From an uncultured Flavobacteriales bacterium (lineage in GTDB: Bacteria; Bacteroidota; Bacteroidia; Flavobacteriales_G; Salibacteraceae), in the NCBI GenBank assembly GCA_905181855.1, contig CAJIZE010000015.1, forward strand, positions 1 to 64,000: DNA of 64,000 nucleotides, written 5' to 3'. This document shows, in pieces, positions 4,431-60,298 of the stretch (the first letter of the stretch is position 1; each line of letters opens with the position of its first letter). The notes beneath the pieces are model-generated. The model ran no database searches. It saw only the letters and a list, made by a program, of their open reading frames with translations, and was not told the origin of the DNA. A program made the translations under genes and the position numbers.

Positions 4431-4532
4431 GAACTTTTTTTATTCCAAAAATTGGAAGTGGCTAAAATATGCAAAATAATAAATTTACAAAATTTGTTTT
4501 CTAGAATCGGGTTTAAAACATATAACCTGCTG

Positions 4533-5687
4533 CTATATAAGCTTTTGAAAAGTTTTTATCCACCTCTCAGGCATCTCATCATTACAGGCTAAAACATAAT
4601 CTGAGTATGAACATGGAACCATCTGATGTCTTTTAAACTTTAATACGTCGTTTTTAGGATGTGGAATATCCATCCACCAACGATCTGTTTTCACGTTTTT
4701 AAGGAAAATCAATTCCCTTTCATTCTTATCTGAGTTAACCCTGTATTTTAAATAGTTGTTTTTATTAATTTCCGGAATTTCACCTTTTCGATGTCCAAAC
4801 CCTTCAATAAAGTACCAAACCATTTGAGCTAAAAGAAAGGCTGTTTGCCCAAAATCTTTTACCAAAGGATTAAATTCATAAAACCCTATAGAGCTAACTT
4901 TATCACTAATACCAGCATAACGAGCTAATGCACAAGCATCTTCACCATAAAAACCATTGGGCGTAACATTTTTATTAGCTGGAGCATCCGAATTCCTTAT
5001 TGCCGATAAATCAAAACTCACCAAATCTGCATTTCTAATAATTGGTTCAGCTTCCTTAAGGTCTGCTTTTATTTCACCTAGCCTAGTACAATCAAAGTGA
5101 AGTTTATCCATTAAATTACGCTCCTCCTGAGTCACAAAATAAGATTGATACCCAAGGTTAGAAAAATTAAAAAGATAGCTAGGTTGGTGTAAAATAATTT
5201 TATTTACATAGCCGTTTGACGTTATCGGTTCACCTACATCCCCAATATCAAACGATGGATCAATTGTTACAACATTTATTACTTGCTCTAACTTTTCGTA
5301 TGCTTTAAAATTGGCGAAAGTTAAATCTTGGCTCCCTCCAATAATTATAGGAACAACTTTGTTTTCCAATAATTCAGCAAGTACAATTGCCAATCCAATA
5401 TAGGTATCGTCAACTGTCTTTCCTGGAATTAAATTACCCAAATCAATTATCTGCAGATTTGAATGTACCGTTGTTAATTGATAAAAATACTCACGAAATT
5501 CATCGGCTCCCTTATCACAACCCTTGTTTCCTATGCTATTTCTATCTTCAGGAACACCTAAAATTGCTAAAGAATATGACTTAAGATCAGCATTCTCAAT
5601 ATTAAAATCAATTTGATTCCCTAAAAACCCTTCCAGAAACTGTGCTTTTTCTTTGTTAACAGGCTTAAGAAAACTACGAATCTGCAT
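4533..5687 (-). CDS. Arginase-fold protein with degenerate metal site (formimidoylglutamase-like)
   Basis: The 384-residue product has the ureohydrolase (arginase/agmatinase/formimidoylglutamase) fold pattern, but the metal-binding motifs are altered. The usual GGxHD is GGSQD at 117-121 (His to Gln). The usual DAHxD is DPSFD at 143-147 (His to Ser). The usual SxDxDxxDP is SFDLSAIRNSDAP at 224-236 (second Asp to Ser). Three of six expected Mn ligands are therefore missing while the flanking glycines and aspartates are kept. Such proteins are often named formimidoylglutamase by similarity; from the motifs a catalytic role is doubtful. It starts immediately after the topA stop with no intervening base, so the two are co-transcribed, and it lies between topA and the T9SS genes. 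Actual function unknown. Confidence 0.85.
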   Translation of the reverse strand: MQIRSFLKPVNKEKAQFLEGFLGNQIDFNIENADLKSYSLAILGVPEDRNSIGNKGCDKGADEFREYFYQLTTVHSNLQIIDLGNLIPGKTVDDTYIGLAIVLAELLENKVVPIIIGGSQDLTFANFKAYEKLEQVINVVTIDPSFDIGDVGEPITSNGYVNKIILHQPSYLFNFSNLGYQSYFVTQEERNLMDKLHFDCTRLGEIKADLKEAEPIIRNADLVSFDLSAIRNSDAPANKNVTPNGFYGEDACALARYAGISDKVSSIGFYEFNPLVKDFGQTAFLLAQMVWYFIEGFGHRKGEIPEINKNNYLKYRVNSDKNERELIFLKNVKTDRWWMDIPHPKNDVLKFKRHQMVPCSYSDYVLACNDEMPERWIKTFQKLI

Positions 5688-54841: not shown

Positions 54842-56168
54842 CTATTGCAATTTTTATTGGTTCAACAATTTGATCAATATCACCGGCTCCCATGGTCAAT
54901 ATTATTTCATTTGAATCTGTTGTTGCTTTTCTAATGGCCTCCGATTTTGAAACTACTTTTTTTGATGAAGATTTAATTTTATTTAAAAGCCATTCACTGG
55001 TTACGCCCTCCAATGAAAGTTCCCTTGCAGGGTAAATGTCAAGTAACAAAACTTCATCTAAAACGCTTAAAGCAATCGCAAACTCATTTACAAAATCACG
55101 TGTTCTAGTATATAAATGAGGCTGAAATATTCCTGTTATTTTTCTTGAAGGATACATTTCTTGAACTGAACCTAAAAATGCTATTAACTCCGTTGGATGA
55201 TGTGCGTAATCATCAATGTAAATTTTTTGAGAATACTTGCAGTGTGTTTCAAAACGCCTCTTAATTCCTGCAAAAGACTTTAAGCCCCTAATTAACTGGG
55301 AAGCAGTGCCCCCAAGTTCAAGAAAAACCGCGGAGGCAACTGTAGCGTTTTCGACATTGTGTCTACCCGCTATACCTAATTCGATATCAAAAACCTTACT
55401 GGCAGGTGTTTGAATATCAAAAAAGTACGAACCATTTTCAACTTTAATATTACTTGCTTTACAGTTTGCTTCACCCTTAATTGAATATGTCAAGCTCTTT
55501 TTCATATCTATTTCAGCTGATGAATTAACCCATGATTTTGATTCAGCAAGTGCAACAAATTGCCCAAAGGTTTCTTCTATATCTTTCTTTCCTGAATATA
55601 TATCCAAGTGGTCCTGATCAGTAGATGTAAGAACGGTATAAGCAGGTTTTAGCCTTAAAAAAGATCGATCAAATTCATCCGCTTCTATAACCTGAATTTC
55701 AGGTTTATCTGACAAAATTAAATTTGAATTATAGTTTGATGAAACTCCACCAATGAATGCGTTTACTTTAAAGTTTGATGCCTTTAGTAAATGAGCCAAC
55801 ATACACGTAACCGTAGTCTTACCATGTGTTCCCCCAACGGCAATGGTTGGATACATTGCGCTAATTTCACCTAAAACCTCAGCTCTTTTTTTACAATTGT
55901 ATTGATACTTTAAAGCAAATTTTAACTCCATATTTTCTTTTGGAATAGCTGGCGTATAAACAACCAAATCTGAAGCATTAAGGTGTCCTTCATCTTCATT
56001 ATAATAAACAACTATTCCTTCCGACGCTAGCGTTTTAGTTAATGGAGTTTCGGTTTTATCGTAACCACTTACTTTAATGTTATAATAATTAAAATAGCGA
56101 GCAAGCGCACTCATACCTATGCCACCGATGCCAATAAAATAAACACTATTTAAATTATTCAGATTCAT
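54822..56168 (-). CDS. murC: UDP-N-acetylmuramate-L-alanine ligase
   Basis: Adds L-alanine to UDP-MurNAc, the first amino acid of the stem peptide. The 448-residue protein has a Rossmann start VYFIGIGGIGMSALARYF, the ATP site VGGTHGKTTVTCMLAH, the central EADEFDRSFLRL, and C-terminal DDYAHHPTELIAFLGS. It is complete. Its start overlaps murG by 4 bases (ATGA) and its end overlaps ftsQ by 20. Confidence 0.98.
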   Translation of the reverse strand: MNLNNLNSVYFIGIGGIGMSALARYFNYYNIKVSGYDKTETPLTKTLASEGIVVYYNEDEGHLNASDLVVYTPAIPKENMELKFALKYQYNCKKRAEVLGEISAMYPTIAVGGTHGKTTVTCMLAHLLKASNFKVNAFIGGVSSNYNSNLILSDKPEIQVIEADEFDRSFLRLKPAYTVLTSTDQDHLDIYSGKKDIEETFGQFVALAESKSWVNSSAEIDMKKSLTYSIKGEANCKASNIKVENGSYFFDIQTPASKVFDIELGIAGRHNVENATVASAVFLELGGTASQLIRGLKSFAGIKRRFETHCKYSQKIYIDDYAHHPTELIAFLGSVQEMYPSRKITGIFQPHLYTRTRDFVNEFAIALSVLDEVLLLDIYPARELSLEGVTSEWLLNKIKSSSKKVVSKSEAIRKATTDSNEIILTMGAGDIDQIVEPIKIAIDERYGN

Positions 56169-57274
56169 TGTTTTATCAAGGCCAATACTTCTTTCGCAAT
56201 TATTGTAGCCGAATTTTCTTTCGCCAGTTTTTCAATATTATTTGACAGCTCTTGCAGCTTCTCTTTATTTGCAAGTAACTGAATAGATTCTTTTACTAAA
56301 TTTTGATTTGCTTGTGCATCAGTTACCATTAAAGCTGCTTCATTATTTACTAATGACCTAGCATTTTTAGTTTGATGATCTTCGGCGGCGTGAGGAAACG
56401 GAACCAAAACACTAGGTTTCTTTGTTAAACACAACTCAGAAACTGCGATAGCACCTGCTCTTGAAATTACTAAATCTGCAACTGCATAAGCTAAATCCAT
56501 TTCCTTTATAAACTGATGAACTTTTACTCCCTTGTCTGAAAAGGGCTTTGCCTCAAAATTCATTTCTTCATAGGTGAATTCCCCTGTTTGCCATACCAAC
56601 TGAATCCCATTTTCAATGAATTGCTTAAGTCCGTCCTTAATGGCAATATTAACCGCTCTTGCTCCTAGAGATCCACCAACCACCAATATGGTGGGCTTAT
56701 CAGAATTTAACCCAAAGAATTTCAAAGCTTGTTCTCTTTTTCCTTTAATCTGTATTACGTTCTGACGAACTGGATTACCCGTAAACACAATTTTATTAGC
56801 TGGAAAAAAGCTTTCCATATCTGGATATGCAACACAAATTTTTGCAGCATTTTTTGCAAGTAATTTATTAGTTATACCTGCATATGAATTTTGCTCTTGA
56901 ATAACAGTTGGAATATTGCTTGCTCCTGCCATTTTAAGTACGGGTCCGCTCGCAAACCCTCCTGTTCCAACTGCGACGTCAGGTTTAAATGCTTTTATGA
57001 TTTTTCTAGCATTCCATAAGCTACTTATTACTTTAAATGGAAAACTTAAATTCTTTAATGTCAAACTTCGTTGCAAACCGCTAATCCACAAACCTTTTAT
57101 AGGATATCCGGCTTCAGGGACTTTTTCCATTTCCATTTTACCTTTAGCTCCAACAAAAAGAATCTCTGAATTAGGATTAATTGCTTTAATAGCATTTGCA
57201 ATAGCAATTGCCGGAAAAATATGTCCCCCGGTGCCTCCACCACTAATAATTACTTTAGGCGATTGCGAACTCAT
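56165..57274 (-). CDS. murG: UDP-GlcNAc:lipid I glycosyltransferase MurG
   Basis: Forms lipid II by adding GlcNAc to lipid I at the inner face of the membrane. GT28 enzyme of 369 residues from the ATG at 57274 (an upstream TTG would add seven residues inside ftsW). Motifs: VIISGGGTGGHIFPAIAIAN, VGTGGFASGPVLKMA, VVGGSLGARAVN and the donor site VISRAGAIAVSELCLTKKPSVLVPFPHAAEDHQTKNA. Its start overlaps the ftsW stop by 20 bases. Confidence 0.97.
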   Translation of the reverse strand: MSSQSPKVIISGGGTGGHIFPAIAIANAIKAINPNSEILFVGAKGKMEMEKVPEAGYPIKGLWISGLQRSLTLKNLSFPFKVISSLWNARKIIKAFKPDVAVGTGGFASGPVLKMAGASNIPTVIQEQNSYAGITNKLLAKNAAKICVAYPDMESFFPANKIVFTGNPVRQNVIQIKGKREQALKFFGLNSDKPTILVVGGSLGARAVNIAIKDGLKQFIENGIQLVWQTGEFTYEEMNFEAKPFSDKGVKVHQFIKEMDLAYAVADLVISRAGAIAVSELCLTKKPSVLVPFPHAAEDHQTKNARSLVNNEAALMVTDAQANQNLVKESIQLLANKEKLQELSNNIEKLAKENSATIIAKEVLALIKQ

Positions 57275-58448
57275 TCTCTTTTGATTCAGGTTCAACTTCT
57301 TCTTTTACGGTTTTAGAATTCGATTTAGCATCAAACTCGCGGCTTACGGATAAAATAATTCCAATGGCTATTGAAGTGAACCAAATGGAGGTTCCTCCCA
57401 TACTTACAAAGGGCAATGGCTGACCAGTTACAGGCAGTAAATTAACTGCCACAGCCATGTTGATTAGTCCTTGAAAAACCAATATAAATGATACGCCGAC
57501 GACCAGAAGCGAGCCAAATGTTTTTTCTGTTCTCATTACAATCCGCATAGCTCTAAAAAAGAGCATGAGGTATAAAAAAAGTATTCCTAACCCACCTATT
57601 ATCCCATACTCTTCAATTACAATTGCATAAATAAAATCAGAATAAGGATGTGGTAAAAAATTTCGTTGTGTACTGCCTCCTGGACCCTTACCTGTTAAGC
57701 CTCCGGTGGCAATAGCAATTTTAGCCTGCTCAACTTGGTAGTTTCCTTTCGTGTCCTGTTTCGAGAAATTCTCAATTCGTTTAACCCATGTTTCGGCCCT
57801 TGGAAATAAAGCGGGAGCATAGTTGGCAACTAACAATGAAAACAAAACCATAACAATACCTACAGAAGCCACACCTAACAAATGACGAATTGGGGTTCTG
57901 CCAATAAACATGAGTACCATACATGATGCAAACAATACGGCGGCGGTTGAAAAGTTTGCCGGAAATATTAACCCACAGACAATAAAAACTGGGATTATGA
58001 TGGGTAAAAATCCTTTTGTGAAATCTTGAATTTCGTCTTGTTTAATAGAAAGCATCCTAGCAACATACATCACCAAAAAAAGCTTAGCTAAATCAGAAGT
58101 TTGAAAGGATTGATTAATCACCGGAATAGTTAACCATCTACTGGCATCGTTAATATTAGTGCCAACCAGAAGTGTTAGCAACAATAGTGGTATTGATATA
58201 ATTACTCCAATTTTTGAGATTTTGGAGAAGTACGTGTATTTAATATTATGCGTAATAAAAATAATGACAAAACCTGACAAAAGGAAAAAGCCATGTCGAA
58301 ATAAATAGCGTAAAGTATTACCCTCGTAATGCTTGTATGCTAAAGTAACAATAGAACTATAAACAAGTAACATAGAAGCCAATGCTAATAATAATGTAAT
58401 CATCCAAACAGCACGATCACCTTTTATGTATTTGTTTATTAACTCCAT
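57255..58448 (-). CDS. ftsW: Lipid II polymerase FtsW (SEDS family)
   Basis: SEDS glycosyltransferase that polymerises septal peptidoglycan with its partner penicillin-binding protein. The 397-residue protein has ten predicted helices and the motifs VGTNINDASRWLTIPVINQSFQTSDLAKL, IATGGLTGKGPGGSTQRNFLPHPYSDFIYA and NLLPVTGQPLPFVSMGGTS. Its start overlaps the stop of the MurD-domain gene by three bases (TAATG). ftsI, the expected partner, is at the far end of the cluster (63015). Confidence 0.96.
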   Translation of the reverse strand: MELINKYIKGDRAVWMITLLLALASMLLVYSSIVTLAYKHYEGNTLRYLFRHGFFLLSGFVIIFITHNIKYTYFSKISKIGVIISIPLLLLTLLVGTNINDASRWLTIPVINQSFQTSDLAKLFLVMYVARMLSIKQDEIQDFTKGFLPIIIPVFIVCGLIFPANFSTAAVLFASCMVLMFIGRTPIRHLLGVASVGIVMVLFSLLVANYAPALFPRAETWVKRIENFSKQDTKGNYQVEQAKIAIATGGLTGKGPGGSTQRNFLPHPYSDFIYAIVIEEYGIIGGLGILFLYLMLFFRAMRIVMRTEKTFGSLLVVGVSFILVFQGLINMAVAVNLLPVTGQPLPFVSMGGTSIWFTSIAIGIILSVSREFDAKSNSKTVKEEVEPESKENEFAIA

Positions 58449-58954
58449 TATAAATTATCCACCAAATTGGTAAAATCGTTTCCTCTTGATTGATAAGTAT
58501 CTAATGTTTGATAACCTGGGCAGGCCGGTGAAAAAAGTACCGTATCTCCCTTTGTTGCCAACGAATTAGCAGCAGCCAATGCTTCGTTTAAAGAATGCAG
58601 CCTAATGGTGTTTTCAACCAACCCTTTGCAGCTCATTTGCAATGATTCGTTTACGGTTTCAGATAAATATATGATGTTCGATACTTTAGTTTTAAGAATT
58701 TGCTTAAGGCTAATAAAATCTTCCATCAATTGAAGATCAGAAGTAATCCAAACAACATTGCCGTCGCATTGCTTGATAGTTTCGATACTCATTGTTGTGT
58801 TGGCCGATTTTGCATCGTTAACGAAATCAACATCATTTAAATTACGAACCAACTCCATTCTAAAAGCTGAACTGTTAACGAACTCTAATGTCTGTTTACG
58901 AGCAGAAATTAAAGGGTTTTCAATCTTAACCGAAGTTTTTTTAATGCTTTCCAT
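58448..58954 (-). CDS. Free-standing MurD C-terminal-domain paralogue
   Basis: A 168-residue protein homologous over about 120 residues to the C-terminal domain of the MurD encoded just upstream. Matching blocks are FVNDAKSANT against MurD YINDSKATNI, VVWITSD against IVWIVGG, TKVSNIIYLSE against QKVKTIICLGL, the SLNEALAAANSLATKGDTVL run against SMSEAVAYAYQSASKGESVL, and SPACPGYQTLDTYQSRGNDF against SPACASFDLFDNYEDRGRQF. The N-terminal UDP-binding and central ATPase domains are absent. The GGVDKG motif is replaced and the Phe of the SPAC loop is lost, while the Lys of NDSK is kept. It begins 9 bases after murD and overlaps ftsW, so it is translated as part of the dcw operon. A tandem partial duplication is the likely origin; function unknown, ligase activity excluded. 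Confidence 0.85.
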   Translation of the reverse strand: MESIKKTSVKIENPLISARKQTLEFVNSSAFRMELVRNLNDVDFVNDAKSANTTMSIETIKQCDGNVVWITSDLQLMEDFISLKQILKTKVSNIIYLSETVNESLQMSCKGLVENTIRLHSLNEALAAANSLATKGDTVLFSPACPGYQTLDTYQSRGNDFTNLVDNL

Positions 58955-58963
58955 AATTAAGTT

Positions 58964-60298
58964 TTAAAGTGACCTTACTGATTCTTTAAATTGACGACCT
59001 CTATCTTCGTAATTATCAAATAGGTCAAAGCTTGCGCAAGCAGGTGATAATAAAACAGACTCACCTTTACTTGCTGATTGATAAGCGTAAGCTACTGCTT
59101 CGCTCATTGATTTCGATTCGATAATAGTATCAACCACATCACCAAAGGCTTCCTTAATTTTCTCGTTATCTAAGCCTAAGCAAATGATAGTTTTTACTTT
59201 TTGTTTTACAATTGGTAATAAAGTAGAGTAGTCGTTTCCTTTATCCACACCACCAACTATCCAAACGATTGAAGATTGCATAGTTTCTAAAGCAAACCAT
59301 GTTGAATTTATATTGGTTGCTTTTGAATCGTTAATGTAATCGATACCACTTACTGTTACTACATGCTCAAGACGATGCTCAAGACTCTGGAAATCAGTTA
59401 ATGAATCACGGATTACTTCTTTGCGGATATCAAGAATTCTACCGGTAATTCCTGACGCCATTGAATTGTAAATGTTGTGCTTTCCTTGTAGGGCTAAATT
59501 TTGAATTGACATAGTTAAAACTGTTTGGTGAACGTTTATATTTATATGATTACTTATTATTTCTGCTCCTTTTTTTTGGGGTTTGGTTAGTGAAAAAGGA
59601 AATTGAACTGCTTTAGATTCATTAGTTAAAAGCTCCTTTGTAATTACTTCATCGTCCGAACAAAACACAAAGGCATCTTCTTCGGTTTGATTTTGAATAA
59701 TTCTGAATTTGCTGTTGATGTAATTCTGGAACTTATACTCATATCTATCCAAATGATCTTCAGTGATGTTCATTAAAATTGCAACATGCAACCTTGTTTT
59801 GAACATTCCATCAAGCTGAAAACTACTTAGTTCGATTACGTAATACTCATGTTCTTTTTCTGCAATTGAACCCGCAAAGCTTTTGCCAATGTTACCTACC
59901 AAAGCCACGTTGTAGTTGGCGTTTTTTAGTATGTGATAACACAACGAAGCCGTTGTAGTTTTCCCGTTTGAACCAGTTATACCTATCAGTTTTGCATTGG
60001 TATACCTAGCTGCAAACTCGATTTCAGAAATCACTTCAATTCCTTTTTGCTTTAACGATTTAATTAATGGAATATGGTCAGGAATACCCGGACTTTTTAC
60101 CACTGAATCAGCTTGCAGAATCTCAGTTTCAGAATGTTTATCTTCTTCGAATTTTACCCCAATATTTATAAGAACTTCTTTATTCTCTTTACTAATTGTT
60201 CCTTTATCAGATACCAATACTTGCCAACCTTTTTTAGCTGCAAGTTTTGCTACTCCAATTCCGCTTTCGCCGGCGCCTAAAACCACTAGTTTTTTCAT
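58964..60298 (-). CDS. murD: UDP-N-acetylmuramoyl-L-alanine-D-glutamate ligase
   Basis: Adds D-glutamate to UDP-MurNAc-L-Ala. The 444-residue protein has all three Mur-ligase domains: LVVLGAGESGIGVAKLAAKKG at the start, ATP loop GITGSNGKTTTASLCYH, central MNITEDHLDRYEY, and C-terminal YINDSKATNINSTW with LLSPACASFDLFDNYEDRG. It is intact, in contrast to the domain paralogue that follows 9 bases downstream. It begins 3 bases after mraY. Confidence 0.98.
   Translation of the reverse strand: MKKLVVLGAGESGIGVAKLAAKKGWQVLVSDKGTISKENKEVLINIGVKFEEDKHSETEILQADSVVKSPGIPDHIPLIKSLKQKGIEVISEIEFAARYTNAKLIGITGSNGKTTTASLCYHILKNANYNVALVGNIGKSFAGSIAEKEHEYYVIELSSFQLDGMFKTRLHVAILMNITEDHLDRYEYKFQNYINSKFRIIQNQTEEDAFVFCSDDEVITKELLTNESKAVQFPFSLTKPQKKGAEIISNHININVHQTVLTMSIQNLALQGKHNIYNSMASGITGRILDIRKEVIRDSLTDFQSLEHRLEHVVTVSGIDYINDSKATNINSTWFALETMQSSIVWIVGGVDKGNDYSTLLPIVKQKVKTIICLGLDNEKIKEAFGDVVDTIIESKSMSEAVAYAYQSASKGESVLLSPACASFDLFDNYEDRGRQFKESVRSL

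Follow-up and report, generated by a model that had tools for sequence, protein, structure and literature searches.

What does a detached C-terminal domain of MurD do between the essential cell-wall genes murD and ftsW? Few bacterial gene clusters have been studied as closely as the division and cell-wall cluster. In the window, the 64,000-nucleotide stretch of DNA from an uncultured Flavobacteriales bacterium that was analysed here, this cluster lies on the minus strand in the order murE, mraY, murD, X, ftsW, murG, murC, ftsQ, ftsA and ftsZ, where the last three are presumed from position and sequence. X is used as a working name for the stand-alone MurD C-domain gene of the window (Table 1) and for its homologues. 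The frame has 168 codons, starts with ATG, and is intact. A gap of 9 nt separates its start from the murD stop codon, and its own stop codon shares one base with the ftsW start codon (TAATG). The gene is thus in frame, uninterrupted and tightly packed, as the preliminary description of the locus had stated. A search of the window's own genome finds a single X.

Table 1. Features of X and its neighbours (positions in the 64,000-nucleotide window).
Feature	Coordinates	Strand	Evidence
X, stand-alone MurD C-terminal-domain paralogue, 168 aa, very probably non-catalytic	58448..58954	-	Pfam, NCBIfam, BLASTP, PDB, AF2 fold, syntenic homologues, dN/dS
X N-terminal extension, residues 1-38; predicted helix at residues 14-29; matches the linker helix preceding the MurD C domain	58841..58954	-	AF2 secondary structure, local pLDDT 64-89; alignment with MurD linker
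NDAKSAN block, X residues 46-52 (E. coli MurD 316-322, NDSKATN); Asp317 and Lys319 equivalents present, Thr321 replaced by Ala	58799..58819	-	
Degenerate GGxDKGxDY loop, X residues 72-80, SDLQLMEDF; Lys348 equivalent is Leu76	58715..58741	-	
SPAC...RG block, X residues 142-158; Ser415 equivalent is Gly147	58481..58531	-	
murD, intact, every C-domain catalytic residue present	58964..60298	-	Pfam/TIGR01087 matches, residue alignment
ftsW, start codon overlapping the X stop codon	57255..58448	-	
murG, same cluster, downstream	56165..57295	-	

The proposed homology to the MurD C-terminal domain, and the significance of the Mur ligase C profile match on which it was to be judged, are both upheld. 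Mur_ligase_C (PF02875) is the sole Pfam domain in X (E 6.4e-7, 30.7 bits, above the cut-off of 28.4). The TIGR01087 murD profile matches only over positions 296-440, its last third (E 1.9e-23), with 83.2 bits against the 211.95 required of a full-length MurD. X and the adjacent MurD share 33% identity over 137 aa (BLASTP E 2e-23), in an alignment that spans the conserved blocks named in the preliminary description, and X also matches the sequences of solved MurD structures in the PDB (E 2.8e-7). Judged by these scores, the match is far above chance. The UDP-binding and central ATPase (P-loop) domains, which X had been said to lack, are found in the adjacent MurD; in X, the profile search gives no Mur_ligase or Mur_ligase_M domain and no match to PF08245, PF21377 or PF21799. 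A family model specific to X is not found, with only PF02875 matching in Pfam and only TIGR01087 in NCBIfam.

The predicted fold of X is that of a MurD C domain. The AlphaFold2 model, built from a 33-sequence alignment, has a pLDDT of 86 and a pTM of 0.78, and MurD ranks first in the structure comparison (7ti7, Z 19.6, 2.1 A, 136 residues). Foldseek matches the model to 4buc (E 1.7e-8), and the model of one more X, encoded in a related MAG of the Flavobacteriales, matches 7sir with a Z of 23.9. The alignments included MurD C domains, so that these results are supportive and not independent. A Mur-ligase C domain is able to fold alone, as in the structural match 3mvn (123 residues). In the model, the N-terminal helix of X, which has low local confidence, superposes on residues close to the P-loop helix of MurD.

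The preliminary description had called for a search of related genomes for the gene at the same site, and this search recovers it. The order murD-X-ftsW is present on one strand in all 59 genomes measured, which belong to 17 families of the class Bacteroidia, and the X homologues are 155-230 aa long. The median gaps in these genomes are 14 nt between murD and X and 12 nt between X and ftsW; certain large gaps and overlaps in this neighbourhood set are artefacts of choosing the start of the longest frame. In an 18th family, X is found beside ftsW only. Among the 60 relatives surveyed, those with a second short MurD C-domain homologue beside murD include members of the window's genus, of some genera of its family (f1), of its order, and of further families of Bacteroidia. 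A species of the window's genus has X at the same place. In a Cryomorphaceae MAG, two different X genes stand in tandem between murD and ftsW with a 4 nt overlap (L207:3986-4513 and 4510-5031).

In the class-wide sample, 57 of 247 genomes, with at least two matches, are counted as X carriers, and the neighbourhood was inspected in 46 of the 57. G248 is left out of this count as it contains a split murD and not X. The families that carry X are f1, f3, f6, f10, f11, f13, f14, f22, f26, f29, f31, f33, f38, f42, f43, f45, f47 and f56. Presence is mostly constant within families that have several sampled members (for example, seven of seven in f38). The carriers that have names are MAGs (uncultured Flavobacteriales, a Cryomorphaceae bacterium and other Bacteroidia), and carriers seem to be mostly uncultivated. 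Apparent truncations or frameshifts of X occur only in G034, at a contig edge, and in G027, in an assembly that also breaks mraY. At this G027 locus (L052), the X C terminus is altered and mraY is in three pieces, probably through assembly or sequencing frameshifts.

Many relatives lack X, among them most genera of f1, the family of the window. In several of these f1 genera, murD directly adjoins ftsW. X is also absent from f16, f37, f41, f55 and f64, which are families of complete, contamination-free genomes, and from the viral contigs of IMG/VR. In approximately 150 genomes of the phylum outside the class, X is not found; two of these genomes (G291 and G436) have two matches each, which were rejected as X because they are pieces of a split murD.

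In the rooted tree of 88 C domains, with 12 MurDs of other classes as the root, 41 of 43 X sequences form one clade (99/97 support) that lies outside the MurD clade of the class. The MurDs of the class form another clade (87/85), and the two remaining X sequences, both from f13, are placed beside them without resolved branching. In the unrooted tree of 83 rows, all 43 X sequences fall on one side of a branch (91/87). With 139 columns, many inner forks are open, and the window's X, on long branches, has no resolved placement among the other X sequences in either tree. None of 63 X sequences is nearest to the MurD of its own genome. Because of this and the single clade of 41, the divergence of X is placed before the radiation of the class's MurDs, which points to an early duplication whose place was retained and which was followed by many losses. 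A recent duplication was rejected on the same two observations. In f13 (L135, L136, L137 and L051), X is far more conserved than the adjacent MurD and also closer in appearance to the typical MurD of the class; a replacement of murD may have taken place in this family, or its copies of X may have a separate origin.

The dN/dS of X, which had also been proposed as a check, is 0.014-0.14 in nearly all species pairs with measurable dS, compared with approximately 0.03-0.16 for whole MurD; many dS values are above 1, so that these ratios are rough. The pair G124-G223 is higher for both genes (0.23 for X and 0.35 for MurD). X evolves faster than MurD in most pairs, yet is constrained. This is reversed in f13, where X has a dN of 0.033 and MurD a dN of 0.233 (G051-G127). 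The window's X is among the fastest-evolving, with 45% identity to its congener compared with 69% for MurD, and the dN/dS range comes from other lineages since the window's genus provides one pair only, in which the dS of X is saturated. By these ratios and by its breadth of occurrence, X is not a decaying duplicate; it is under strong purifying selection. The preliminary description had likewise seen no obvious decay, and relatives in 18 families with dN/dS well below 1 agree with it.

Residues that determine the fold and residues that bind ligands have diverging fates in X (numbering of E. coli MurD; 63 X sequences and 87 MurDs of these genomes). Arg302, Asp317, Lys319, Thr321, Lys348 and Ser415 are kept in 86-87 of the 87 MurDs. 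In X, Asp317 is retained in 52/63 sequences, Ser415 in 44/63, Thr321 in 43/63, Arg302 in 40/63, Lys319 in 39/63, and Lys348 in 8/63. The window's X has equivalents of Arg302, Asp317 and Lys319 and lacks those of Thr321, Lys348 and Ser415. In MurD, Lys348, Thr321, Ser415 and Phe422 bond D-Glu mimetics, with Lys348 bonding their carboxyl (PMC3527612), and Arg302 acts as the handle when the C domain closes (PMC4816537). The fold residues Glu304, Asn316, Pro411, Gly426 and Phe429 are fixed in 61-63 of the 63 X sequences (62-63 for all but Phe429). Across 41 positions that are invariant in MurD, 15 are kept in at least 90% of X sequences and 11 are lost (retained in about half or less). At two positions, the families of X share a state that differs from MurD: Ser instead of Ala329 (0.78) and Phe instead of Leu409 (0.76). 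As the substrate residues are relaxed while the fold residues are fixed, X is, on sequence grounds, a pseudo-domain or pseudoenzyme-type paralogue, with the fold kept under purifying selection and the catalytic residues eroded.

The MurD beside X is intact in the carriers. In ten carriers, no truncated Mur ligase without a C domain is found, and each protein with a PF08245 hit has an open frame of at least 409 codons. The number of PF08245 proteins in carriers equals that in two non-carriers (7-8); the window's assembly, which is only 55% complete, contains 5. The idea that X supplies a C domain to a truncated ligase was rejected because no such ligase is found in the ten carriers.

In three families (f6, f47 and f43), a second, more divergent stand-alone copy of the MurD C domain lies away from the cell-wall cluster. 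Copies at L256:6783-7322, L257:6617-7156, L258:6695-7333 and L261:6871-7488 are more degenerate, and an aldehyde dehydrogenase gene is adjacent in f6 and f47. In one genome of f43 (G081), the cluster itself is broken between murD and X (L260:5493-7262 and L106:2074-3417). One fragment ends with murE-mraY-murD, and X lies elsewhere, directly upstream of ftsW, without murD or murG. In this single genome, X stayed with ftsW and not with murD. The gene after ftsW on this fragment is presumably PD40/OmpA-like and the gene before X HPt-domain-like, both named by eye. No more broken clusters are found in the orders of G081, G239 and G044, which hold few genomes.

Established Mur ligase chemistry argues against catalysis without UDP- and ATP-binding domains. 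Because X is missing both, it is very unlikely to be an enzyme in its own right. The preliminary description had suggested a binding partner or brake of MurD, a carrier for its product, or a scaffold. A role as a carrier of D-Glu or of the MurD product is unlikely, since the D-Glu-binding Lys348 is lost in 55 of 63 X sequences. A protein-protein role fits a fold under selection, lost ligand residues, and linkage to ftsW. We tentatively prefer, at somewhat less than even confidence, the reading that X is a non-catalytic cytoplasmic adaptor in the FtsW/MurG/Mur-ligase machinery. It would act non-enzymatically by binding other proteins of the machinery that leads from precursor to membrane. Most likely, it would sit on the FtsW/MurG side and dock or coordinate the Mur ligases, and it may be made together with FtsW through translational coupling. 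FtsW/MurG would be the first choice of partner and MurD the second. The G081 linkage mildly favours a scaffold on the FtsW side over a brake on MurD. Against an adaptor, the link to ftsW without murD comes from one genome, the absence of X from many relatives means that the machinery works without it, and the second copies far from the cell-wall cluster mean that its role is not strictly tied to FtsW.

A rather unlikely alternative, though the strongest, is that X brakes or activates MurD by binding it, for example by standing in for its mobile C domain or pressing against it, and so tunes the rate of D-Glu addition. X adjoins murD, keeps the C-domain fold, and derives from a domain that moves in MurD and must swing closed for catalysis (PMC4816537); inhibition of MurD by a protein partner has a precedent in MigC of Acinetobacter, proposed to tune it (PMC12208494). 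However, the residues that face the central domain and ATP (R302, K319 and K348) are not conserved among X sequences, which makes a common mimicry of the closed interface unlikely, and in G081 X is with ftsW and away from murD. It is improbable that X senses a small molecule (ADP/ATP, D-Glu or the UDP-MurNAc dipeptide) and so informs the divisome of precursor supply. The frequent retention of Asp317 and Ser415 and the three equivalents present in the window's X would fit such a sensor, but no ligand residue is kept throughout, Lys348 least of all, and most nucleotide and UDP sites of MurD are in domains that X does not have.

It is very improbable that X is functionless, whether as a decaying or as a selfish duplicate. 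Its patchy presence, its fast evolution in the window's genus and its loss in many sister genera are offset by an open, syntenic frame in many families, an early origin, low dN/dS in most pairs, and apparent lesions only at the contig edge and in the assembly with a broken mraY. Least probable of all is a role mainly at the level of the transcript or operon, through murD-ftsW spacing or translational coupling, and not as a protein, since the tight spacing and ftsW overlap that suggest it are outweighed by protein-level purifying selection, conserved fold residues, and second copies outside the cluster.

The adaptor reading can be set beside known systems. MurD and X share a fold, clear sequence homology, adjacent genes and the fold-determining residues; X differs in having no UDP- or ATP-binding domains, in relaxed Lys348, Arg302, Lys319, Thr321 and Ser415, and in forming a separate clade with its own conserved states. 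MurT, which is among the structural matches of X, is also a Mur-ligase relative and works together with GatD in a complex of two proteins, the lipid II amidase MurT-GatD, but its chains in these matches have approximately 390-400 residues compared with approximately 170 in X. MigC, a COG0523 GTPase, has likewise been proposed to tune MurD as its protein partner (PMC12208494); unlike X, a MurD paralogue inside the cell-wall cluster, it is an unrelated zinc-binding GTPase. MurG-based Mur scaffolds are known in Bordetella (PMC6420597) and organise Mur ligases non-enzymatically at the membrane, as is proposed for X, but there the scaffold is MurG itself and not a dead ligase domain. The preliminary description knew of no described role for such a protein, and searches of open-access papers (subscription papers were outside the search) give neither a role nor a description of a stand-alone MurD C domain or of an extra gene between murD and ftsW.

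X is thus a member of the cluster with no description found in the open-access literature; at least 17 families keep it in one place, and it is under strong selection. It is conceivable, and slightly more doubtful than the adaptor role itself, that X is an early, dedicated, non-catalytic Bacteroidia protein derived from MurD, one that serves FtsW-MurG and the Mur ligases as an adaptor or regulator, was lost in the families best represented by complete genomes, and so apparently went unnoticed. That its carriers are mostly uncultivated is a possible reason why X was missed. The organisation of the Mur ligases as a complex is an old open question, on which X would offer a natural, dispensable handle. 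X may point to a layer of control or assembly, so far unrecognised, that acts between the making of soluble precursors (MurD) and the polymerase in the membrane (FtsW). If so, it would be a new kind of control factor of peptidoglycan synthesis, built from a detached enzyme domain.
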